Assembly: GCA_016209865.1 (NCBI GenBank)
Contig: JACQVL010000029.1
Span: forward strand, 1-10,495
Length of the DNA stretch: 10,495 nucleotides
Direction of reading: 5' to 3'
From: Candidatus Latescibacterota bacterium
GTDB lineage: Bacteria; JAAXHH01; JACQVL01
Part shown: in pieces, positions 1 to 10,495 of the stretch
How the letters are laid out: every line of letters starts with the position of its first letter
How positions within the stretch are numbered: position 1 is the stretch's first letter
Notes under the pieces: model-generated
Database searches by the model: none
Told to the model about the DNA's origin: nothing
The model's input: only the letters and a program-made list of their open reading frames with translations
Program-made: the position numbers and the translations under genes

Positions 1-50
1 CTCCGCTTGCGGAGAGGGGAAGGGGGCTGGGGGCGTAGGGGTGAGGTTCA
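1..50. repeat. Palindromic G-rich intergenic repeat, cut by the left edge
   Basis: The first 14 bases form a perfect inverted repeat: CTCCGC (1-6), TT, GCGGAG (9-14). A strongly G-rich tail follows to about position 50 (AGGGGAAGGGGGCTGGGGG, then GTGAGG). From memory, a short C/G-rich hairpin next to a 'GGGG...GGGTGAGG' tail is a common form of dispersed intergenic palindrome in environmental bacterial genomes. The left part is outside the window, so the full unit cannot be defined. It could also be part of the terminator of a gene to the left, but no T-run follows on the plus strand. Confidence 0.5.
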
Positions 51-118
51 AGACTCGGCAATCCAATTCTTTTTCTGAACGTCTATAGCATGTTCACTGT
101 CATCCACAATGGTTCGTC

Positions 119-147
119 TTGACTTACAGCGCAGTATGAATTACTAT
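119..147 (+). promoter_or_regulatory. Candidate sigma70-type promoter for the SDR gene
   Basis: TTGACT at 119-124 (5 of 6 to the -35 consensus) is separated by 17 bp from TACTAT at 142-147 (4 of 6 to the -10 consensus). Transcription would start near 154, giving a leader of about 90 nt that includes the period-7 AT-rich repeat and the Shine-Dalgarno site. An alternative -10, TATAAC at 145-150, fits its hexamer better but lies 20 bp from TTGACT. This rests on sequence match only. Confidence 0.4.
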
Positions 148-201
148 AACACTACTGTCAAGGGATTTCCGGGAAGAGTGACCCTGTTTTTGCTTGGTTT
201 C

Positions 202-236
202 AATTCCAAATTCCAAAATCGAAAATCCAAAATTAT
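202..236 (+). repeat. Period-7 AT-rich tandem repeat before the SDR gene
   Basis: Five consecutive 7-mers are read: AATTCCA, AATTCCA, AAATCGA, AAATCCA, AAATTAT. The run ends immediately before the GAGGGG Shine-Dalgarno site (237-242). It contrasts sharply with the GC-rich surroundings. It should lie in the leader of the SDR transcript and stay unstructured, which could help ribosome access. Its function is not known. Confidence 0.7.
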
Positions 237-247
237 GAGGGGCTGTC

Positions 248-1051
248 ATGAAACTCGAAGGCAAAGTCGCCCTGATCACCGGCTCCGGGCGGGGACTCGG
301 ACGGGCGTACGCCCTCCACCTGGGCCGGCTGGGGGCGGATGTCGTCGTCAACGACATCGTCCTGGAGGCGGCGAAGGAGTACGACGAAGTGCTGACCGCG
401 CCGACGGTGATGGACGAACTCCGGGCGATCGGCCGCCGGTCAATCGGGATTCAGGCGGACGTGACCGTCAAGGCAGACGTCGAGGCGATGATGCAGCAGG
501 TGCTCGACGAGTTCGGCCGGCTGGACATCCTCGTCAACAACGCGGGCGGGGCGCTCCGCCACCCGCACGACCGGGCGAACACCGCGTCCACCGCCCATGA
601 GGACTACTACCGGTACATCATGGACATCAACCTGACCGGGACGATTTGGTGTTGCCAGGCGGCGAGCGTCCCGATGAAGGCGCAGCGGAGTGGGAAGATT
701 GTGAACGTCAGCTCACAGGCTGGGATGTGGTCGGGGAAGGGCGGCGGCGGGATGCCGTACAAAGTGGCGAAGGCGGGAGTCATCCAGTACACCCGCATCT
801 TAGCGGCGGAACTCGGGCCGCATGGGATCAACGTCAACTGCATCGCGCCGGGGTTCATCCTCTCGTCCCGGGCGATCGCAGGCGGCCGCGGCCAGTCGCC
901 GACGAAAGAAGAACTGGAAGCCCAGATTCCGCTCCGCCGGCTCGGCGTCCCTGAAGACTGCGCGAAGGTCGTGGAATTCCTCGTCACCGACCTGTCGGAT
1001 TACGTCACCGGCCAGTGCATCCCGGTCTGCGGGGGGTTTGTGGCGTTTTAA
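248..1051 (+). CDS. Short-chain dehydrogenase/reductase (classical SDR, FabG-like)
   Basis: A 267-residue NAD(P)-dependent oxidoreductase of the classical SDR family, probably a soluble cytoplasmic tetramer that interconverts an alcohol and a ketone. Visible motifs: cofactor-binding TGSGRGLG (11-18), an Asp at the end of strand beta2 (D36) that usually means NAD(H) preference, NNAG (97-100), and the tetrad N128, S156, Y171, K175 (YKVAK). The PG motif at 201-202 follows the usual beta6 position. The stretch after beta2 (about 42-64) is longer than in typical FabG, and the Ser-Tyr spacing is two residues longer than in E. coli FabG because of a glycine-rich loop (164-168). The start is supported by GAGGGG five bases upstream. 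The stop is followed within two bases by the ACGTT repeat array, and the deiminase-fold gene comes 86 bp later. The substrate cannot be told from sequence; fatty-acid synthesis is unlikely because no fab genes are nearby. Confidence 0.93.
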   Translation: MKLEGKVALITGSGRGLGRAYALHLGRLGADVVVNDIVLEAAKEYDEVLTAPTVMDELRAIGRRSIGIQADVTVKADVEAMMQQVLDEFGRLDILVNNAGGALRHPHDRANTASTAHEDYYRYIMDINLTGTIWCCQAASVPMKAQRSGKIVNVSSQAGMWSGKGGGGMPYKVAKAGVIQYTRILAAELGPHGINVNCIAPGFILSSRAIAGGRGQSPTKEELEAQIPLRRLGVPEDCAKVVEFLVTDLSDYVTGQCIPVCGGFVAF

Positions 1052-1052
1052 A

Positions 1053-1134
1053 GACACGTTAGCACGTTGACACGTTAGAACGTTGCAACGTTAAAATAAC
1101 GTGCGAACGTGCGAACGTGCAAACGTGGGAACGG
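1053..1134. repeat. Two-armed 8-bp tandem array (ACGTT units in opposite orientation)
   Basis: The spacer between the SDR stop and the next ATG is almost wholly made of 8-bp units. Left arm: GACACGTT, AGCACGTT, GACACGTT, AGAACGTT, GCAACGTT (1053-1092). After an A-rich centre come GCGAACGT, GCGAACGT, GCAAACGT and the degenerate GGGAACGG (1103-1134). The right-arm core AACGT is the reverse complement of the left-arm core ACGTT, so the array is an imperfect long inverted repeat. The innermost arms are ACGTTA (1088-1093) and TAACGT (1097-1102) around AAA. A perfect 14-bp palindrome, AACGTTGCAACGTT, lies at 1079-1092. In RNA, four 5-bp helices would alternate with 3-nt mismatched loops. It could be a binding array, an intercistronic hairpin or a dispersed repeat. 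Confidence 0.8.
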
Positions 1135-1137
1135 TGT

Positions 1138-2016
1138 ATGTCGTATGTCTGTCAGTCGATGGTCGCGCCGCTCCGGCGGGTGATCGTGAAGCGTCCGGAG
1201 GAGGCGTTCCTGGATGAGGCCCAGGTCGACGCGCAGTGGCGAACGCTCGGCTACCTCGACCGGCCAGACCTCGCCCGCGCGGGGGACGAGCATCGTCGGT
1301 TCGTCTCGCTGCTGCACGAGGCCGGCGCGGACGTGATCCCGTTACCCGCCGACCTACGAACGGGACTGGATTCGCTCTACACCCATGACCCGGTCGCGGC
1401 GGTGACGGAGCGTGGGGTGATCCTGGCCCGGATGGGCAAAGAGGCGAGGCGGGGCGAAACGGACGCAATGGCAGATGCGTTCGCGCGTTTGGGAATCCCG
1501 GTGCTCGGTCGGATTCACGAGCCGGGGACGATCGAAGGAGGCGACGCCCTCTGGCTCGACCGGCAGACCGTCGCCGTCGGCCGGACCTACCGGACAAACG
1601 CGGACGGCATCCGGCAATTCCGGACGCTCCTCGCTCCCCTCGACGTCGAGGTGATCGACGTCCCGCTCGTCCACTGGGACGGCCCCGGGGCGGTCCTCCA
1701 TCTGATGTCCATCATCAGCCTGCTGGACGACGACCTGGCTGTTGTCTACGACCGGCTTTTGCCCATCCCGTTCCGGGAACTCTTGCTTCACCGCCGGGTT
1801 CAGATGGTGTCCCTGCCGCAGGAGGAGTACGATTCGATCGGCTGTAATGTGCTGGCGGTCGCGCCGCGCCGGTGTCTGATGCTGTCCGGCAATCCGAAGA
1901 CCGCCCAGCGGCTCCGTCAGGCCGGGTGTGAGGTGCAGGAGTTCGACGGCGCGGACATCTGCCTCAAAGGAAGCGGCGGCCCGACCTGCCTGACCCGACC
2001 GGTCTGGCGGGAGTAG
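1138..2016 (+). CDS. Arginine deiminase/DDAH-fold amidinohydrolase
   Basis: A 292-residue protein of the guanidino-group-modifying superfamily (arginine deiminase, dimethylarginine dimethylaminohydrolase (DDAH), amidinotransferases; COG1834-like). These enzymes attack a guanidine or amidine carbon with a catalytic Cys. Motifs fall in the family order: YTHDP (81-85), GTIEGGD (130-136) with the likely catalytic Glu at 133, GRTYRTN (148-154), HWDGPG (179-184) followed by LHLMS with the likely catalytic His at 188, and GGPTCLTRP (280-288) with nucleophile C284. The length is close to a single-domain DDAH and much shorter than the roughly 400-residue arginine deiminases. ATG at 1138 is chosen because GGGA at 1127-1130 lies seven bases upstream; an in-frame GTG at 1117 would lie inside the repeat array. 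No arginine-pathway gene is adjacent, so the substrate is open; an amidinotransferase role is possible. Confidence 0.85.
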   Translation: MSYVCQSMVAPLRRVIVKRPEEAFLDEAQVDAQWRTLGYLDRPDLARAGDEHRRFVSLLHEAGADVIPLPADLRTGLDSLYTHDPVAAVTERGVILARMGKEARRGETDAMADAFARLGIPVLGRIHEPGTIEGGDALWLDRQTVAVGRTYRTNADGIRQFRTLLAPLDVEVIDVPLVHWDGPGAVLHLMSIISLLDDDLAVVYDRLLPIPFRELLLHRRVQMVSLPQEEYDSIGCNVLAVAPRRCLMLSGNPKTAQRLRQAGCEVQEFDGADICLKGSGGPTCLTRPVWRE

Positions 2017-2029
2017 CCGGTCTTTTCCC

Positions 2030-2058
2030 TTGCCCGGATTCCGACTTGCGATTATAGT
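2030..2058 (+). promoter_or_regulatory. Candidate sigma70-type promoter for the AOR gene
   Basis: TTGCCC at 2030-2035 (4 of 6) and TATAGT at 2053-2058 (5 of 6) are 17 bp apart, in the 110-bp gap behind the deiminase-fold gene. The start would be near 2065, giving a leader of about 60 nt that contains the ACCGACC repeat. It suggests the AOR and perhaps the following dehydrogenase can be transcribed apart from the first two genes. This rests on sequence match only. Confidence 0.45.
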
Positions 2059-2090
2059 ACAACGATCTCTGAATAGTCTTATCAGGTTTT

Positions 2091-2111
2091 ACCGACCACC
2101 GACCACCAGCC
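2091..2111 (+). repeat. Period-7 ACCGACC repeat before the AOR gene
   Basis: Three 7-mers in a row are read: ACCGACC, ACCGACC, ACCAGCC. The run ends four bases before the GGAG ribosome site (2115-2118) of the next gene. It is short, so chance is possible taken alone. It gains weight because a different period-7 or period-8 run precedes each neighbouring plus-strand gene. Confidence 0.5.
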
Positions 2112-2126
2112 TTCGGAGCCATCGCT

Positions 2127-3965
2127 ATGATCATGCCAAAACAGAACAACGGCCAGAGCCTGACGTTCTCGGATTTCGCGTACCGTCGCGCGACAGTTGA
2201 CCTGACGAATCAGACCTCCCGGATCGAGGAGAGACGGTGCGAGGACATGGAAGACTTCATGGGCGGGATTGCGCGGGCGTTCAAATTCCTCGCCCGGTAC
2301 GAGGTGCGTGACCCGTACGCGCCCGACAGTCCGCTCTTGATGAACACGGGATTGCTGAGCGGGACGGAGGTGATGACCGGCCTCCGGGTGTTCTTCTCCG
2401 CGTACAGCCCGTTGAAAACGTCGAACGCCGGGCTTCCGGGCGCGATGTGGTCGGCGGTGAGCGGGGAGCTCGGGACGAAACTCCGGTACGCCGGACTGGA
2501 CGAAGCGCTGTTCGTGGGGCGAGCCGCAAAACCGGTCTATCTCGTCATTTCCGGGGACGGGACGCACGTTGAGCTGGCGTTCCACGACGCCTCAGACCTG
2601 GTCGGGCGGACGACGCAGGAGAAGATCATGGCCCTGCTCGACCGGTACCAGGATGCGCATTTTGCCGCCATCGGTCCGGCGGGAGAACATTACGACACCG
2701 TCCGGTACGCGGCGATCGCGGGCAGTACGATCAATCAACTGAGAAGCCGTGACGCGAAGAGCCGGTTCGCGGGCCGCGGCGGGATGGGCGGGGTGATGGG
2801 GTCGAAGAACCTCTTAGCGATCGTCGCGCAGGCGCAAGACCCGAAGGGGGAGCGACTGAGCGAGGAAATGAAGAAGATTAACCACGAGATCGCCCGCGGG
2901 CCGGGTTCCCGGAAGTTCCGGGATGCGGACAAAGCGGACGGCCTGGGCGGGACGTGGTCGAACTACCCGACGATGCACGCCGTCCACATCCTCCCGGAGA
3001 ACAACTTCCGGCCGACCGGGAGCGACGCGCCGGCTCATATCTTCCGGGAAGCGGTGGAGGAGGAATTTCTCGTCAAGGATGAATCCTGTTTCCGGTGCGG
3101 CATCGCCTGTCATAAGAACCTGTACGAGCGGAAGGACGACGGCAAGGCGGGCGCGTTCCTGGCGAAATGGGACTACGAACCCCTGAACTTGCTGACGACC
3201 AACCTGGGGATTCACGACCGCCAGGCGGCCAATGAGCTCATCCTCCTCGTTGACCATCTCGGCTTCGATTCCATCAGCCTGGGGACGACACTCGGCTACG
3301 TCATGGATTACAACCGTCGCCGCAGCACGGGCAAGATCGCGGACGGCCTGTCGTTCGGGGATGCGGAGACGACGCTGCGGATCATCACCCGGATCGCGCA
3401 CGGCCAGGAACCCCTGCTGGGACAGGGCACGAAACGGCTGGCTGATCAGCTCGGCGAGAGGGCGTACGCGATGCAGTGCAAGGGGGTCGAACTCCCCGCC
3501 TACCTGCCGGACACGAACCCCGGCTACCCGTTCGCCATCGCGGGCGGGCACATGTCGATGCAGACATTCCTCCTCCTGGCCAACGAGAAGGATACCTCGC
3601 TCGACTACTGGGAGAAGGCGATCACCGAGCGGGGATTGTACCAGATCAGGGACGATATCACCGGCCTCTGCAAGTTCGCCGGACTGAATTACCCGATGGC
3701 CGCGCAGGCGATCACAGAGGTGACGGGCGTCCCGATGACCGAACCGGAGTTGCGGCGGGTGGTGCTCCGGACGTTCCTCCGGGGGTACGCCCTCGAACGG
3801 AAGCAAGGGTTTGCAGTCGAGGATTACGTCTTGCCAGAGCAGACGTACGACCCCAACCCTAATATCAAGCTCCCGGCGTTTATCACGCGGTCGTTCTTCG
3901 AGGAACTCCGGAGCCGGGTGCTGCGTCGGTTTGACGCGATGGTGGCAGAGCAGGGGGTGGGGTGA
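2127..3965 (+). CDS. Aldehyde:ferredoxin oxidoreductase (AOR) family tungsto/molybdo-enzyme
   Basis: A 612-residue member of the AOR family, whose enzymes oxidise aldehydes (or reduce acids) with a W or Mo bis-pyranopterin and one [4Fe-4S] cluster, passing electrons to ferredoxin. The length is typical. The N-terminal pterin-binding domain covers about 1-235, including GRGGMGGVMGSKN (216-228). Cluster ligands are C321, C324 and C328 (CxxCxxxC) plus C515. Both pterin-contact motifs are present: DHLGFD (376-381) and DITGLC (510-515). E351, in a DYE context, fits the conserved active-site Glu, and H475 may be the catalytic His. The usual glycine-rich GGxGL segment near the N-terminus is altered here (GGIARA, 46-51), so this is a divergent subgroup. 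GGAG eight bases upstream supports ATG 2127; ATG 2133 is possible. The fourth neighbour gene starts 42 bp downstream. No ferredoxin, cofactor-synthesis or tungstate-transport gene is in view. The substrate is unknown. Confidence 0.92.
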   Translation: MIMPKQNNGQSLTFSDFAYRRATVDLTNQTSRIEERRCEDMEDFMGGIARAFKFLARYEVRDPYAPDSPLLMNTGLLSGTEVMTGLRVFFSAYSPLKTSNAGLPGAMWSAVSGELGTKLRYAGLDEALFVGRAAKPVYLVISGDGTHVELAFHDASDLVGRTTQEKIMALLDRYQDAHFAAIGPAGEHYDTVRYAAIAGSTINQLRSRDAKSRFAGRGGMGGVMGSKNLLAIVAQAQDPKGERLSEEMKKINHEIARGPGSRKFRDADKADGLGGTWSNYPTMHAVHILPENNFRPTGSDAPAHIFREAVEEEFLVKDESCFRCGIACHKNLYERKDDGKAGAFLAKWDYEPLNLLTTNLGIHDRQAANELILLVDHLGFDSISLGTTLGYVMDYNRRRSTGKIADGLSFGDAETTLRIITRIAHGQEPLLGQGTKRLADQLGERAYAMQCKGVELPAYLPDTNPGYPFAIAGGHMSMQTFLLLANEKDTSLDYWEKAITERGLYQIRDDITGLCKFAGLNYPMAAQAITEVTGVPMTEPELRRVVLRTFLRGYALERKQGFAVEDYVLPEQTYDPNPNIKLPAFITRSFFEELRSRVLRRFDAMVAEQGVG

Positions 3966-3974
3966 AGGGAGGGG

Positions 3975-4006
3975 GGCGAAAAGGGGAAAAGGCGAAAAGG
4001 AGAAAG
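3975..4006 (+). repeat. Period-8 GGCGAAAA purine repeat containing the ribosome site
   Basis: Four 8-mers in a row are read: GGCGAAAA, GGGGAAAA, GGCGAAAA, GGAGAAAG. The last copy contains the GGAG Shine-Dalgarno site (3999-4002), five bases before ATG 4008. The repeat is all-purine apart from two C bases and fills nearly the whole 42-bp gap behind the AOR stop. Gain or loss of a unit would change the number of ribosome-binding-like sites. Confidence 0.7.
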
Positions 4007-4007
4007 A

Positions 4008-5030
4008 ATGAACACGTATCGAGTCGGGTTTATCGGATGTGGGGGCATCGCGGGGGCGCACGCCGCGGGCTACCGGGCCGTCCAGAACGCGCAGATCGAC
4101 TTCGTGGCGGGCGCGGACGTCAACGCGAGCAGCGACCGGGTGAAACGGTTCGTCGAACGGTACGGCGTGAAGCTGTACACCGATTACCGGGAGATGTTAG
4201 CAAAAGAGCAGTTCGACCTCGTCTCCGTCTGCACCTGGCCACGCACGCACTGCGAAGGGACGATCGCGGCGGCGGAGCATGGGGCGAAGGGCATCATGAG
4301 TGAGAAGCCGATGGCGGTGAACTTGGACGAGGCGGACCGGATGATCGAGGCGTGCACGAAAGCCGGAACGACCCTTGCCATCGGCCATGAGCACCGGTTC
4401 GACCCGCAGTCCGTCCGGGCGAAGGAACTGCTCCGGCAGGGGGAGATCGGACGGCTCACCCTGGCCTGGGGGCATTGCGGAGCCGACTTGATGAACAACG
4501 GGACGCACGTCATCGACCTGATCAACTACTTCAACGACGACGTCGAGCCGGTCTGGGCGATGGGTCAGGTCGACCGGCGGCGGAAGCTCGAAGGACGGGG
4601 CAATCATCCGGATATGGTGATCGAGGATATGGCGGTCGGGCGCGTGGGGTACAAGAACGGGGTCACGGCCCTGATCGAACTGGGGGAATGGGCGCACCCG
4701 GCGTACCAGTTTCACCTCATCGGGACGGACGGGATCATCGACGTCAACATGCCCAACGCGCCGACGTTGAAAGTGCTGTCGAGCTTCCGCCACGTCGGCT
4801 GGACGGCCCCGGACCTCCCCCAGGTGGATGTTATGCGGGCGGAACTGGAGGAGCTGATCGACGCCGTCGAGGGCCGGGCGGTGCACCGGTCGAGCGCCCA
4901 GCGCGGCCGGGCGGCGTTAGAGACGATCATGGGCATCTTCGAGTCCACCTACCGGCGGGCGCTGATCGAATTTCCGGTGACGATCCGGGACTTTCCCCTG
5001 GAGCGGATGATCAAGGAAGGTCTGCTGTAA
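4008..5030 (+). CDS. Gfo/Idh/MocA family NAD(P)-dependent oxidoreductase
   Basis: A 340-residue cytoplasmic dehydrogenase of the Gfo/Idh/MocA family, which acts on sugars, inositols and related polyols. The N-terminal Rossmann domain (about 1-125) opens with GFIGCGGIA (7-15). The family's EKP motif, with the catalytic Lys, is E99-K100-P101. The C-terminal alpha/beta domain has GTHVIDLINYF (165-175), matching the GxHxxDLxxxL helix that supplies the catalytic His and Asp. The length is normal. The start follows a GGAG site that is itself the last unit of a period-8 repeat. The gene lies 42 bp behind the AOR gene on the same strand, so co-transcription is likely. Its stop is one base from the stop of the opposing MetE-like gene. 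The substrate is not predictable; sugar or inositol derivatives are the family default. Confidence 0.92.
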   Translation: MNTYRVGFIGCGGIAGAHAAGYRAVQNAQIDFVAGADVNASSDRVKRFVERYGVKLYTDYREMLAKEQFDLVSVCTWPRTHCEGTIAAAEHGAKGIMSEKPMAVNLDEADRMIEACTKAGTTLAIGHEHRFDPQSVRAKELLRQGEIGRLTLAWGHCGADLMNNGTHVIDLINYFNDDVEPVWAMGQVDRRRKLEGRGNHPDMVIEDMAVGRVGYKNGVTALIELGEWAHPAYQFHLIGTDGIIDVNMPNAPTLKVLSSFRHVGWTAPDLPQVDVMRAELEELIDAVEGRAVHRSSAQRGRAALETIMGIFESTYRRALIEFPVTIRDFPLERMIKEGLL

Positions 5031-5031
5031 A

Positions 5032-6075
5032 TTATTGATTCAATGAGTGCCGCACGATCTCCGCGCCACGCACGAGCGCTTTCAGCTTCTCCACCGCCAG
5101 CCATCGGGCGGTCTGACTGAACCCGCAGTCCGGGGCGAGCCACAGCCGGTCCGCCGGGACGTACTGAAGCAGGTTATGAACCCGCTCGACGACCTCTTCC
5201 GGGGTCTCGACCGAACGCCCCTTGACGTCGATCACTCCCGCGCAGAGGATCTTGTCCCCTCCGTATTCCTTCCAGAGGTCGGTTTCCCACATACACCGGT
5301 TGGCGAATTCCAGGTGGATGACGTCGGCGGCCAGATCGCGGAAGTATGGGGCGAACGCGGCATACGACCGGTAGGAGATCGCCGGGCGTCCCCGGAAATT
5401 GCCGAAGCAGAAGTGGACTTCGACCATCGCTTCCACGTCCTTCACGCAGGCGTTGAAGACGGAGACCATCTCCGGGAGACCGCCGGGCATGATCCAGAAC
5501 GCGGGTTCGTCGATCTGGATGTGCCGCGCGCCGGCCGCGACCACGGCGTGAAGCTCCTCGTTGATCCAGGGAACCAGGTCCCAGGCTACCTCTCCTTTAT
5601 CTTTATACACCCGGCCAGGGTTGATCCGGAACGCTTGCGTGACCGGCCCTTGCAGCGCCACGATGAGCGGCTTCGTCGTGCGCGAGTGCGCGTACTGCCA
5701 TTCCCGGTCCAATCCGTAGCCGTGCGGGACGGTCAGCTGCTCGACACACCGGAACGCGTCGAGCTGGTCCGGGCCGGGATAGCCCAGCCGCCGCTCGAAC
5801 GGAATCTTCTCCAGGCCGTGGATGCGGTCGTGAAAGTTCCAGGTGAAGTCCGCGCGCTGCATCTCCCCGTCGGAGATGATGTCCACCCCCGCCTCGGTCA
5901 TGTCCATGATGGCGGTGTTCACCGCGTCCTTGAGCGACTCCTCGATGTCCGAAGGCCCCAATTTGCCCTCAGCGACCGCATCCCGCAGCACCCACACCCA
6001 GCTCGGAAGTCCGTGGCTGCCGATCACCTGGGTGGGTAACAGCGGAAGGTCGGGGTACACGGTTCGAGGATGCAT
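5032..6075 (-). CDS. MetE-like single-barrel (core) methyltransferase
   Basis: A 347-residue protein matching the catalytic C-terminal half of cobalamin-independent methionine synthase (UROD/MetE-like TIM barrel, COG0620), which transfers a methyl group to a zinc-bound thiol. The zinc set is complete: H221 and C223 (HFCFGN), E256 (LEFANR) and C317 (PDCGFSQT). QIDEPAF (187-193) gives D189, equivalent to the homocysteine-binding Asp. IGSHGLP (18-24) and ISDGEM (67-72) are other family blocks. Full MetE is about 750 residues with an N-terminal barrel that is absent here, so the protein resembles archaeal and bacterial core-MetE forms. Those may use methyl donors other than polyglutamyl methyl-folate. 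Relatives also include epoxyalkane:coenzyme M transferase, so the thiol acceptor is open. The start follows AAAGGAGAT (minus strand, 6082-6090), eight bases from ATG by its AGGAG core. It diverges from the large membrane-protein gene. Confidence 0.88.
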   Translation of the reverse strand: MHPRTVYPDLPLLPTQVIGSHGLPSWVWVLRDAVAEGKLGPSDIEESLKDAVNTAIMDMTEAGVDIISDGEMQRADFTWNFHDRIHGLEKIPFERRLGYPGPDQLDAFRCVEQLTVPHGYGLDREWQYAHSRTTKPLIVALQGPVTQAFRINPGRVYKDKGEVAWDLVPWINEELHAVVAAGARHIQIDEPAFWIMPGGLPEMVSVFNACVKDVEAMVEVHFCFGNFRGRPAISYRSYAAFAPYFRDLAADVIHLEFANRCMWETDLWKEYGGDKILCAGVIDVKGRSVETPEEVVERVHNLLQYVPADRLWLAPDCGFSQTARWLAVEKLKALVRGAEIVRHSLNQ

Positions 6076-6120
6076 CGGATGATCTCCTTTCCTGGGTCGA
6101 TAAACCGCCTCGCTTTTTTC

Positions 6121-6149
6121 TTCCCTGCACGTGGATCACCCAATATAAT
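6121..6149 (+). promoter_or_regulatory. Candidate promoter for the OPT-like membrane-protein gene
   Basis: A perfect TATAAT lies at 6144-6149. The -35 at 17-bp spacing (TTCCCT, 6121-6126) is weak, so an activator may be needed. The start would be near 6156, about 40 nt before ATG 6195. It overlaps the opposing -10 of the MetE-like gene. Confidence 0.4.
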
Positions 6150-6173
6150 ACAAAGCGACCTGTTCGTGTACAA
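6145..6173 (-). promoter_or_regulatory. Candidate promoter for the MetE-like gene
   Basis: On the minus strand TTGTAC (plus 6168-6173; only 3 of 6 to the -35 consensus) is followed after 17 bp by TATTAT (plus 6145-6150; 5 of 6 to the -10). The start would lie near 6138, giving a leader of about 60 nt before ATG 6075. Its -10 shares five bases with the plus-strand TATAAT at 6144-6149. Confidence 0.45.
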
Positions 6174-6185
6174 AATACGACGAAC
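6162..6185. promoter_or_regulatory. Inverted repeat in the divergent promoter region (possible operator)
   Basis: GTTCGT (6162-6167) and its exact reverse complement ACGAAC (6180-6185) are separated by 12 bp. The pair spans the minus-strand -35 and falls in the likely 5' leader of the plus-strand transcript. It could be a dimeric repressor site or a small leader hairpin just ahead of ATG 6195, which lacks a clear Shine-Dalgarno sequence. Arms of 6 bp can occur by chance. Confidence 0.3.
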
Positions 6186-6194
6186 GATCCAACG

Positions 6195-8165
6195 ATGGAG
6201 GATTGTCTCATCGATCAGACGCCCGGCTCGCCCAGCCCTGTCTCGCTTCGAGCGGCCATCATCGGCCTGTTCCTCTCTGCCGTCGTCAGCCTCTGGGGCC
6301 AGTACGCGGCCGACCATTTGGGCTACAATTACATGACGTATGGCCAGCTCCCGACCTGTTTCCTGCTGCCTTTTCTCCTCCTCGTCCTGGGGCCGAACAT
6401 CGCCCTGGGGTCTGTCGCGCCGCGACGAGCGCTCACCCGGTCGGAAGTCCTGGTGATCTTCTCGATGGGCCTGATCGGGTCGATGGTGCCCGATTGGGCG
6501 ATGACGCGCTACCTGATCGCCATCATCACCGCCCCGCACTATTTCGCCAGCCCGGAGAACCGATGGGCGGACAAATTCTTCTCCGCCCTGCCCGACTGGC
6601 TGGTGCTCCGCGATGAGCGCGGGGCCGCGCGGACGTTCTTTGAAGGTCTGGCGGCCGGGCAGTCGATCCCGTGGTCCGCCTGGGTCGTGCCGCTCTTCTG
6701 GTGGTTGTCGTTCTTCGCCGCCCTCCTGTTCGTCGGAGCCTGCCTGGTCGTCATCCTCCGGAAGCAATGGGTGGAGCACGAAAAACTCCGGTTCCCCTTA
6801 GGACAGGTGGCCCTGCACGTCGTGGGCGTGTCGGACGAGGCCGCTCATTCCGCATGGCCGGCGTTTTTTCGCACCCGGATGTTTCAGGCCGGTCTGGGGA
6901 TCGCCCTGTTCGTCATGACCTGGAATTGCATCGCCTACTGGGACGTGCTCCCGCGGATTCCGATCGCGTACTCTGATGGGTTCGACCTGACGCTCGGACG
7001 GGCATTCCCTCCGATCCCGATTCGTCCCGACCTCTATGCCCTGTGTTTCTCATTCTTCGTCAACGTCGAAATCCTCTTCAGTGTCTGGTTCTTCATTCTG
7101 CTGGTCAGTATCATCGAGGCCGGGGTTCTGAACCGGATCGGCGTGTTCGCCCCGTCCAGCACGTTCGTGAAAGGCGGCCTCCCGTCCATCCAATCGATCG
7201 GGGGAATGATCGTGTTCGTCCTGTGGGGACTCTGGATGGCGCGGCCTCACCTGCGGGAGGTGTTGCGGAAGGCGGTCGGTCGCCCGACTGCTCTCAACGA
7301 CGAAGACGAACTTTTTTCCTACCGGACTGCGGTGGTCGGACTGGTGATCGGACTGCTCTACGTGGTGGGCTGGCTCCACTCTGCTGGCTTCTCGTTGCCG
7401 GTCCTGGCCTTGTTTCTCTTTTGCCTGTTCGTTTTCTACCTGGCCATGGTCAGGATGATGGCCGAGGCGGGACTGGTGACGCTCGACCTGCCGATCAACG
7501 CCAACCAGTTCACCGTCGGGATGGTGGGGTCCGTCCATCTGTCCCGGCCGGATTTGACCGCCCTCGGCCTGGCCAATGCGTTCGCGCGGAACTGGCGGAC
7601 GTTTACGATGGTCGGGCTGTCCCACGTGGCCTGGCTGCGCGACCGGGTCTGGCCGGGACGGCGTCATCTGTTCGGCTGGCTGTGTCTGGCGTTCGGGACG
7701 AGCGCGCTGTCGTCGATCCTTTACGTGATCTACGCGGGATACACGACGGGCGCGAACAACCTGCGGTCCGGGCCTGGAGGGCTGGGGGTGGGGTTCTACA
7801 GCATGATCATCCAGTGGGTGGACAACGCGACCCAGGTCAGCCGGCTGGAGATTCTTTTCCTGATCTCTGGCATGATCCTGAACATCCTCTTAACCGCCGG
7901 CCGGTATCTGTTCTACTGGTGGCCGCTCCACCCTATCGGGTTCGTGGCGCTGACCTCGGACTCCGTGCTCCGCGTCGTCTTTCCGATCTTTCAGGCCTGG
8001 CTGATTCAGACGTTGCTGCTCCGGTTCGGCGGAGTTCGACTCTACCGAAAGACACAGCCGCTCTTCTTAGGACTGTTGGTGGGATATGTTTTAGGGGTGG
8101 GGGTATCCTACGTCGTTGACAGCGTCTGGTTTCCGGGCAGTCCGCATGCGACGGAGGCGTTTTAG
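6195..8165 (+). CDS. Large polytopic membrane protein, OPT-like / DUF6785-DUF6784 type
   Basis: A 656-residue integral membrane protein with about 12 or more hydrophobic segments, roughly at 19-38, 54-74, 84-105, 162-188, 229-249, 281-312, 331-348, 377-395, 399-419, 493-515, 551-578 and 622-642. The block EHEKLRFPLGQ (194-204), after a long membrane pair, resembles the cytoplasmic E-x-L-x-F-P-x-x-Q element of oligopeptide-transporter (OPT)-like proteins. The MMAEAG block (421-426) and WWPLHPIGF (575-583) match what I remember of the DUF6785/DUF6784 family, common in Planctomycetota-like genomes and without an assigned substrate. Transport across the inner membrane is inferred, not shown. ATG 6195 has no good Shine-Dalgarno site; the GGAGG at 6197-6201 lies inside the gene. 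A two-copy 8-bp repeat (AACGATCC, AACGATGG; 6183-6198) spans the start. The gene diverges from the MetE-like gene and ends 22 bp from the convergent antitoxin-like gene. Confidence 0.8.
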   Translation: MEDCLIDQTPGSPSPVSLRAAIIGLFLSAVVSLWGQYAADHLGYNYMTYGQLPTCFLLPFLLLVLGPNIALGSVAPRRALTRSEVLVIFSMGLIGSMVPDWAMTRYLIAIITAPHYFASPENRWADKFFSALPDWLVLRDERGAARTFFEGLAAGQSIPWSAWVVPLFWWLSFFAALLFVGACLVVILRKQWVEHEKLRFPLGQVALHVVGVSDEAAHSAWPAFFRTRMFQAGLGIALFVMTWNCIAYWDVLPRIPIAYSDGFDLTLGRAFPPIPIRPDLYALCFSFFVNVEILFSVWFFILLVSIIEAGVLNRIGVFAPSSTFVKGGLPSIQSIGGMIVFVLWGLWMARPHLREVLRKAVGRPTALNDEDELFSYRTAVVGLVIGLLYVVGWLHSAGFSLPVLALFLFCLFVFYLAMVRMMAEAGLVTLDLPINANQFTVGMVGSVHLSRPDLTALGLANAFARNWRTFTMVGLSHVAWLRDRVWPGRRHLFGWLCLAFGTSALSSILYVIYAGYTTGANNLRSGPGGLGVGFYSMIIQWVDNATQVSRLEILFLISGMILNILLTAGRYLFYWWPLHPIGFVALTSDSVLRVVFPIFQAWLIQTLLLRFGGVRLYRKTQPLFLGLLVGYVLGVGVSYVVDSVWFPGSPHATEAF

Positions 8166-8187
8166 GGCGGGGATGAATGCGTCCGTT

Positions 8188-8376
8188 CTATAGTTTTTCA
8201 GAGTGCCCAACGAGAGCTTCATCTGCCAGTTTGTCGAGCTTCCCGGATCTGACATCTTTCTCTATTTGGCGTTCCCATTTTGTTGCTTCATACTCATAAA
8301 ACCATTGACGAAACGCTGCCAGTTGTGCTTGATTCAATTTCCTCACCTCTTGTTCGAGTTTCTCAACCCTGGTCAT
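8188..8376 (-). CDS. Small antitoxin-like protein, no adjacent toxin
   Basis: A 62-residue acidic/basic helical protein. The N-terminal part (VEKLEQEVRKLNQAQLAAFR, 4-23) is followed by WFYEYEATKWERQIEKD and then GKLDKLADEAL. This order (an 'L-x-x-E/Q-L-A-x-F-R-x-WF' helix, 'W-x-R-Q-I-E-x-D', 'GKLDxLAxEAL') is typical of small antitoxins usually encoded directly before a RelE/ParE-type toxin. Here only 22 bp follow before the end of the membrane-protein gene on the other strand, so no toxin gene can fit. The start is ATG 8376, with GAGGAG eight bases upstream on the minus strand; GTG 8379 is directly adjacent and also possible. The gene lies 52 bp downstream of the kinase-propeller gene on the same strand and could be read from it. 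The family call rests on pattern memory. Confidence 0.65.
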   Translation of the reverse strand: MTRVEKLEQEVRKLNQAQLAAFRQWFYEYEATKWERQIEKDVRSGKLDKLADEALVGHSEKL

Positions 8377-8428
8377 CACATCGTCTCCTCTTCTTGTGGG
8401 ATAACGGGAGATGGATGTTTACCCGGCC

Positions 8429-10495
8429 TTATCGCTTCTTCTCAAACTCCCGCGCCCAGTTCTCCACGACGATGAACGTAGTCCTCGCCTCTTCCTGCAT
8501 CTGCAACGCCACGAATCGCTGGCCATCTGCGGGTACATCGTACGTCGGACCCGCAAGGCTACCAACCAGACGAAACCGAGATCGCTCCTGATCGAAGGGA
8601 AACAGTGGCCGGGGCGTGCCCCACTCGAACTCCGGCGTCGTCCGAACCGGCACCACCATCAGCGCTCGGACGGTGCTCGGCGCCGTTCCCTCGACGTAAA
8701 AGAGCTCATTGCTCTGCCCGCTCCACCGGGGTGCCATCCCGCCGTTGACTGACACCAGCCATTGGCGCCGACCGTCGGGAAACGACCGCACGTAGATCTC
8801 CCACCGGCCCGACTCATCCGACGCGTACGCCACATATCGGCTATCGGGCGACAGCGCTGGACTTATTTCCTGGAAAGGAGTTTGCCGAAAAAGACTTGGA
8901 GATCGGTTCCCCGTCATGGGCAGATACCATAGATCCAACTGATTCTTCTCATCTCTCGCCGAGTAGACCAGGTACTGGCCACGCCACGCGGTCAGGCCCC
9001 ATTTCCCCGCAGGACCGGTGACGAGCAGTTTCTCCTCATCACTCCCATCTGCAGCCTTGAGGTAAATATTGGGGTAAGAAATTACACCGGACAGGAACGC
9101 CACCTGATCGCCCGCCGGATTCCAGATCGGGTAGAGTTTGGGCTCGGGAGTAGAGGTCAGACGGAACTTGGTCCCCCGGTCAGCGTCGTGAATCCAGATG
9201 TCCATGTTGTTCTGCTCGGTGCTTGTGACCACCACGCGCCGGCCATCGGACGACAGGGCAAGATTCGTGATATTGGTCTGGGGCTGGCCGATGGGACCCT
9301 CGATCTGCCCGCTGCGGCCCACCCACACTAACTGCCTGGCCCCTTCTGAGAGTGAGCGATACACCAATGTGCCATCCGAGGATACGCTGGGGATGTCCCC
9401 CTGAGCCGCTACCAGGAACGGCTCGCCCGTCTTCCTCCGACTCCTCAGGTCGAACGGCACCGCCCATATGCCCACATCCCACCCGCCACGTTGATACACG
9501 AGATGCCCTGTGGGGGAGTATATCGGAAACGCCAGCGCATCCCCGGGATGGCGTACCAACATCATCCGCGTATCGCCATCCTGGACTACGAGAGCTCCCG
9601 CGCTGTCTATCATGTCCACAGCAAAGACGAGGGTTTCTCCACCCGGAAGGACATGAGGATAGAAAAACCCGCGTTCGCCCCGGGTGGAGTCCGGCTGCAA
9701 AAACACCTGCGGGATACCCCCCTGTGCCGGGACGGTATACAACGAGGTATTGTTCCCTGTCGTCAGACCGAACACGATGTCGCCTGTTGCCTTCCACGTG
9801 GCTCCGGCCAGGAACCCCTGGGGCAAAGTGCACACCGGAGTGCTCGACCCGCTCTGGACGGCCACAGTGCGGAGTTGGTCGCCTCTACGTCCGCCGAGGA
9901 TACTGGGTACAAAGTAGCCAATGACTTTGCTGTCGGGGGCCCAGAACGGTCGTTGCGCGCCGTCGGTGTCAGCCAGTTCGCGCGGCTCCACCTCTGCCAG
10001 ATGACGCACCCACAGCCGATTTCCCTTGGTGTAGGCCACCATCATGCCGTCAGGAGAGATCGCGGGGCCATTAAGACGATTGCCAAAATCTGCGGATTGG
10101 AATGCATATTTGCGAAGCGGTGGTTCGGGACTCGACGTGAGAAACCATGTCGCCAGCGCGGTCACGAGCACCGCGGCTGCTGCTATCGGTACCGGCCGGC
10201 GCCAGAAGGGGATGGATTTCGGTGGCTCCACCTTTGGCGGTGGAGGCAGTGTGCGCGCGTCCACGAGCACCGTCCCGGCGTCCACATCCGCCTTCACCTC
10301 TTTCAGGTCATTCCGCACCTCCCGCGCCGTCTGGTAGCGGTTCCCCACGTCCTTCTGCAGACACTTCCGGACGAGCCGGCCCAGGTCGCGCGGCAGTTCT
10401 GGCTTGAGCACCGTCACCGGCGTCGGCTCGTCCTTCAGGATGCTGCTGATGATGGCGACATAATCCGCCCCCTCAAACGGCCGTTGCCCGGTCAG
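8429..10495 (-). CDS. Ser/Thr protein kinase with membrane anchor and PD40 beta-propeller (partial)
   Basis: 688 residues are visible, and the reading frame stays open to the right edge, so the N-terminal part of the kinase is missing. Residues 1-65 are the end of a bacterial Hanks-type (PknB-like) kinase C-lobe: LTGQRPFEGADYV, then CLQKDVGNRYQTA with the conserved subdomain XI Arg at about 53. A Pro-rich linker (about 80-95) leads through FWRRP to one membrane helix (about 102-121), with positive charges on the kinase side, so the kinase is cytoplasmic and the rest is outside. From about 125 to 675 there are TolB/PD40-type propeller repeats, such as SPDGMMVAY (147-155) and LSPDSRYVAYASD (548-560). 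The C-terminus VENWAREFEKK fits the 'NW-x-x-E/L' tail common to these kinase-propeller proteins. It probably senses an extracytoplasmic signal and phosphorylates cytoplasmic targets. A Val encoded by GTG at 10417-10415 is internal, not the start. The family is abundant in Acidobacteriota and related phyla. Confidence 0.9.
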   Translation of the reverse strand: MTGQRPFEGADYVAIISSILKDEPTPVTVLKPELPRDLGRLVRKCLQKDVGNRYQTAREVRNDLKEVKADVDAGTVLVDARTLPPPPKVEPPKSIPFWRRPVPIAAAAVLVTALATWFLTSSPEPPLRKYAFQSADFGNRLNGPAISPDGMMVAYTKGNRLWVRHLAEVEPRELADTDGAQRPFWAPDSKVIGYFVPSILGGRRGDQLRTVAVQSGSSTPVCTLPQGFLAGATWKATGDIVFGLTTGNNTSLYTVPAQGGIPQVFLQPDSTRGERGFFYPHVLPGGETLVFAVDMIDSAGALVVQDGDTRMMLVRHPGDALAFPIYSPTGHLVYQRGGWDVGIWAVPFDLRSRRKTGEPFLVAAQGDIPSVSSDGTLVYRSLSEGARQLVWVGRSGQIEGPIGQPQTNITNLALSSDGRRVVVTSTEQNNMDIWIHDADRGTKFRLTSTPEPKLYPIWNPAGDQVAFLSGVISYPNIYLKAADGSDEEKLLVTGPAGKWGLTAWRGQYLVYSARDEKNQLDLWYLPMTGNRSPSLFRQTPFQEISPALSPDSRYVAYASDESGRWEIYVRSFPDGRRQWLVSVNGGMAPRWSGQSNELFYVEGTAPSTVRALMVVPVRTTPEFEWGTPRPLFPFDQERSRFRLVGSLAGPTYDVPADGQRFVALQMQEEARTTFIVVENWAREFEKKR

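Follow-up and report, generated by a model that had tools for sequence, protein, structure and literature searches.

The window examined here is a stretch of 10,495 nucleotides (positions 1 to 10,495 of GenBank contig JACQVL010000029.1, our contig C188) from the draft genome of a Candidatus Latescibacterota bacterium, an assembly of 3.75 Mb in 356 contigs that is 83% complete. Near its start, a short-chain dehydrogenase gene is followed on the same strand by a gene for a protein of the arginine-deiminase/DDAH fold, and the whole spacer between the two is an inverted array of octamers (Table 1). The original prediction had described a two-arm octamer array filling this intercistronic gap, and the description is borne out: the units can be read directly from the sequence, and the corresponding spaced patterns give 0 matches when read backwards. 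The perfect 14-bp palindrome and the 6-bp arms around AAA that it had singled out are both present, the latter as ACGTTA and TAACGT at the center of the array. It had also placed the edges of the array close to the neighboring codons, which is correct, but the distances of two and four bases need revision, as the first unit begins 3 nt past the upstream TAA and the last unit, AACGGT, which is degenerate, ends 2 nt before the ATG. This copy is among the tightest-fitting of all elements described below.

Orthologues of the deiminase-fold gene within the same order align from residue 2-3 with 62-68% identity, and the ATG at 1138 is therefore probably the true start. Because this ATG lies only 2 nt past the element, any Shine-Dalgarno sequence of the gene would fall inside the right arm; given this start, a separate ribosome site has no room and must lie within that arm.

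Table 1. Coordinates of the array, its neighboring genes and other repeat arrays in the window and elsewhere
Feature	Location	Position	Strand	Description
TCCAAAA arm	Window	200-234		Single heptamer arm
Upstream gene	Window	248-1051	+	Short-chain dehydrogenase (PF13561/PF00106)
Upstream stop codon	Window	1049-1051	+	TAA
Left arm	Window	1055-1092	+	Five octamers [AC]ACGTT-NR: CACGTT.ag CACGTT.ga CACGTT.ag AACGTT.gc AACGTT
Palindrome	Window	1080-1093		AACGTTGCAACGTT, perfect, 14 bp
Central spacer	Window	1093-1097	none	AAAAT
Right arm	Window	1098-1135	-	Five inverted units: AACGTG.cg AACGTG.cg AACGTG.ca AACGTG.gg AACGGT
Downstream gene	Window	1138-2016	+	Arginine-deiminase/DDAH-fold protein (PF02274, PF19420)
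GGCGAAAA array	Window	3973-4007		Octamer array
GGCGAAAA-related array	L084	932-970
AGTGACG inverted pair	L057	535-704
AGTGACG inverted pair	L059	4266-4403
AGTGACG inverted pair	L073	3254-3430
AGTGACG inverted pairs	L312-L314

The array family in the draft genome and beyond

In the draft genome there are 41 distinct elements, of which 20 have two arms and 21 a single arm, with L051 and L073 counted as a single locus that a contig end divides. Across the genome the pattern ACGT(N4)ACGT(N4)ACGT has 138+138 matches on the two strands and 0 when read backwards, and the pattern ACGTT(N3)ACGTT(N3)ACGTT has 86+77 matches versus 0; because such spaced patterns are abundant forwards and missing backwards, the ACGTT array is not a product of chance. 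Exactly five units are found in 45 of the 61 arms of these elements. Alignment of the arms gives a unit of ACGTT-N-R-M on the left and its reverse complement on the right, in which the cores are conserved in sequence and the neighboring NRM triplets are variable. The inverted polarity is constant in all two-armed pairs seen, the spacers between arms measure 5-58 bp and are unrelated in sequence among copies, and solo arms are as frequent as pairs. The outermost unit is often AGCGTT or AACGCT, a cap that occurs on either side of an element and never on both (among two-armed elements, at L053, L068, L078, L081 and L083-L086), as though perfect pairing of the outermost units were being avoided. 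The flanks are on average A-rich on the 5' side and T-rich on the 3' side.

Transposition was considered as a source of the copies and rejected. The target-site duplications and near-identical copies that mark a MITE or other transposed element are missing here: no duplications were found, flank identity does not exceed that of shuffled flanks, the arms of different copies are no more similar than column-shuffled arms, and no Y1 transposase was detected in the 83%-complete assembly. Selection of the linkers for stop codons in several frames was likewise dropped, the frequencies of AG, GA and AA being near those predicted from base frequencies in a calculation worked by hand.

The approximately 200 kb surveyed around the elements also contain many arrays with 7- or 8-bp units, most of them intergenic and several forming inverted pairs, which belong to the families AGTGACG, TCCAAAA, CAGGGGT, CTTCGTC, AACCCCG, GAGTGAA and GGCGAAAA. 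Three AGTGACG units in a row, allowing at most 2 mismatches, have 485 matches in the host genome, and 13 further genomes of its order gave none. For three TCCAAAA units with at most 3 mismatches there are 251 matches genome-wide. The family often forms inverted pairs, and nine such pairs have arms that are near-identical along ~31 bp and mostly contain the same odd unit; because the spacers of these pairs are unrelated, the near-identity suggests that TCCAAAA arms spread by copying. In the window itself, a TCCAAAA arm lies just upstream of the first gene, and a GGCGAAAA array fills the stop-to-ATG junction between an AFOR-like gene and a Gfo/Idh gene.

The spaced ACGT pattern gave 0 matches in 38 other genomes, 15 of them from the same order. 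Among the matches listed for a 20-base spaced pattern are Chloroflexota (Anaerolineae and others), Abditibacteriales SKYG70, KSB1, a cyanobacterium, Bacteroidota and further groups, but many of the arrays matched there carry other linkers or are plain repeats. Matches to the [AC]ACGTT array number 530 in Abditibacteriales SKYG70, 293 in Chloroflexi S1bins75, 166 in Anaerolineales Yes70-19 and 77 in MAG Bin_019. In Bin_019, Zod_maxbin.0504, SKYG70 and S1bins75 combined, 63 of 67 elements lie at tandem or convergent junctions, with 1 divergent, 1 in-gene and 2 at contig edges; anchoring to the stop codon is looser in these genomes than in the host, and their arms show no fixed five-unit length. 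A 42-kb IMG/VR record, 3300037264_008483 (L216, L219, L240 and L242), carries many paired AACGTC-ga / GACGTT-tc arrays of identical architecture but with a different core; although classed as viral, it may be bacterial DNA that was misclassified.

Position of the elements relative to genes

Genes were called in the ~200 kb of stretches around the elements with a custom codon-usage caller, not Prodigal. Element centers fall within called genes in 9 of 41 cases, versus 36.7 expected. Random placement, including placement inside genes, had been named in the original prediction as an observation that would refute its reading, and it is not seen. The companion comparison presupposed that relatives keep the gene pair, and this part did not stand: the pair with the deiminase-fold gene is not conserved in relatives of the order, which offer no empty site for comparison. 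In forward-strand relatives from other families of the order (L299-L302), the ADI-like gene follows the 3' end of an apparent DNA-ligase-type (BRCT-ended) gene, with neither spacer nor array.

Classification of the junctions, in 42 rows with the C23/C208 locus counted twice, gave 32 tandem, 5 convergent and 0 divergent, with 5 at contig edges; for array-free gaps of at least 60 bp, used as background, the figures are 51 tandem, 2 convergent and 9 divergent. Wherever the upstream stop of a two-armed element is in view, the element overlaps it or begins no more than 4 nt later, and offsets from the stop often correspond to whole units (-8, -16, -24). The stop codon of the upstream gene lies inside the array in nearly half of the elements, and in convergent pairs both stops are at or within the element. 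Of 29 tandem junctions, 19 have a Shine-Dalgarno-like sequence 3' of the element, mostly within ~25 nt, which leaves no space for a new promoter, and once the element is subtracted the residual gap of tandem junctions has a median of 12 nt. Because a Shine-Dalgarno sequence directly follows and the residual gap is short, most elements sit inside operon-like junctions; because of this location, transcription would be expected to run through most copies.

The positions occupied are also those at which an insertion does no harm. A selfish or mutational repeat without function, produced by slippage, template switching or a lost mobility system and surviving behind stop codons, would account for this distribution and for the upstream stop codons found inside arrays. 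Such an origin would also accommodate the presence of several unrelated families in one genome, two tested families being absent from the other genomes of the order, and the near-identical TCCAAAA arms with their unrelated spacers, which point to arm copying. We nevertheless consider a functionless repeat rather unlikely: the predominance of five-unit arms and the conserved cores beside variable neighbors argue for some maintained constraint, the inverted polarity holds in every two-armed pair, and target-site duplications are missing.

Folding, covariation and candidate roles

The original prediction had anticipated a regular, imperfect stem at the RNA level, and the predicted fold agrees, with a minimum free energy of -40.5 kcal/mol for region 1040-1150 (z -2.6 versus dinucleotide shuffles). 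Approximately 18 of the 20 two-armed elements are predicted to fold arm-to-arm in register, with minimum free energies of -28 to -48 kcal/mol, and the natural triplets give slightly weaker folds than random triplets do (mean z +0.48, P 0.03). Covariation, which had been put forward as a check of the stem, did not bear it out: no positive covariation was detected between arms, and the cores, which hardly vary, cannot show any. In register, the NRM triplets pair less than partner-shuffled triplets (WC+GU z -3.5, P 3e-4, 75 triplet pairs). This deficit is absent at registers +/-1 and +/-2 in the same genome and was not replicated in three other genomes (G041/G039, G042); it is suggestive only. 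No bias of G.U over A.C was found on the sense strand (triplets 18:20, core 6:10), and selection on the stem at the RNA level is therefore not supported. Thus a long imperfect hairpin is physically plausible as modeled, evolution gives no proof of it, and DNA as well as RNA is a possible target of selection. The covariance models of Rfam 15 gave no match at the elements; a TPP riboswitch was found elsewhere in L083.

A strong predicted hairpin at gene 3' ends, including those of convergent pairs, and flanks that are on average A-rich 5' and T-rich 3' are features that might be expected of a bidirectional transcription terminator or attenuator. However, no consistent U-tract immediately follows the hairpin in sense orientation, the G+C-rich hairpin with U-tract of an intrinsic terminator was not found in the sequences downstream of the elements, and the next Shine-Dalgarno sequence is usually so close that a promoter has no space. 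We therefore regard termination as highly improbable, and the attenuator role proposed originally is disfavored on the same two grounds, the missing U-tract and the Shine-Dalgarno sequences that follow.

Given that the core is conserved in sequence and not through compensatory change, the array might instead be read as DNA. A multimeric protein could recognize [AC]ACGTT at 8-bp spacing and bridge or loop the two arms, in a nucleoid or partition role, or act as a global regulator; the lack of sense-strand bias, the fixed length of the arms and the sharing of the core with distant phyla are consistent with this, and IHF/HU-like binding has been proposed for paired octanucleotide sites in Geobacter (PMC2700814). 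Nevertheless, none of the 37 classified junctions is divergent, which argues against promoter operators, the variable spacers show no evident helical phasing, and single arms occur as often as paired ones; we judge recognition at the DNA level, the regulator-binding array of the original prediction included, unlikely though still a contender. Less probable still is a dedicated machinery that builds or reads counted inverted arrays at gene 3' ends, in several families per genome and spread across phyla while sister lineages lack it, with arms that are deliberately imperfect complements.

We tentatively favor a dispersed, two-armed REP/STRR-like element that is transcribed as a stop-proximal intercistronic hairpin. 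If the element has any role, its arms would pair just behind the terminating ribosome into a long stem with interruptions, which may modulate termination or recycling and downstream re-initiation, as stop-proximal REPs do, and could block 3'-5' exonucleases acting on the upstream cistron. REPs sit downstream of genes (PMC3733652), and a REP within 15 nt of a stop codon reportedly stalls ribosomes and reduces translation (as cited in PMC12306157). STRR hairpins located between the hup genes of cyanobacteria have been proposed to stabilize or couple transcripts (PMC2670836). Among the three roles offered by the original prediction, an mRNA stabilizer between cistrons is the most plausible. The elements are probably old repeats that were tolerated, and partly co-opted, at the sole free sites of a genome that is 90% coding. 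A point against the hairpin reading is that neutral tolerance predicts the gene-end location equally well.

Comparison with known repeat systems

Paired short-tandem arrays have been noted before in single genomes of Geobacter, cyanobacteria and Beggiatoaceae, where they were left unexplained. Their parts are now quantified here, namely the five-unit arms, the anchoring to stop codons and the 0 divergent junctions in the host genome, as are the recurrence of the [AC]ACGTT unit in distant phyla and the occurrence of several families in one genome. The role of such repeats thereby becomes directly testable, and there is a simple way to spot the arrays in MAGs.

The TAACTGA heptamers of Beggiatoaceae resemble the present family as a short intergenic tandem unit that carries stop codons and is distributed patchily across phyla, but they form direct repeats only, lie mostly just upstream of starts and have no predicted fold (PMC4679880). 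REP and BIME elements share an intergenic location downstream of genes, at tandem or convergent junctions, often as inverted pairs and many of them stop-proximal (PMC3733652, PMC12306157), but differ in that the present stem is built of octamer tandem repeats. The GTAG/CGTC foot motif of REPs is absent from the flank profile of the elements, and the host genome gave no match to RAYT (Y1_Tnp, PF01797), an absence that is not final in an assembly 83% complete. Because both tag and transposase are missing, the family is not filed as REP.

Similar to the present arrays, cyanobacterial STRRs consist of short tandem units that are intergenic, repeated genome-wide and capable of forming hairpins, and some lie between co-transcribed genes such as hupS-hupL (PMC2670836). 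Their units are usually 7 bp compared with 8 bp here, although true 7-bp families also exist in the host genome, and the accounts consulted do not describe a fixed five-unit inverted pair for them.

The original prediction could match the array to no known element, a statement that is superseded by these kinships with STRR and REP and above all by paired octanucleotide sites in Geobacter metallireducens, whose architecture is the same. The class 1 putative global-regulator sites of that genome comprise 24 pairs with four tandem octanucleotides each, placed on opposite strands at variable distance and with no known function, and several octamer and heptamer classes of G. metallireducens were not identified in G. 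sulfurreducens (PMC2700814). Both systems thus place tandem octanucleotides on the two strands at a variable distance from each other, in tens of copies, and both genomes carry several classes. They differ in consensus, which is GTTGCTYN in Geobacter class 1 and [AC]ACGTT-NR here, and in units per arm, four there and five here; anchoring to stop codons is established for the present family. The paired inverted octanucleotide architecture is therefore already known from Geobacter metallireducens, and it is the core, the five-unit arms and the stop-codon anchoring that differ here.
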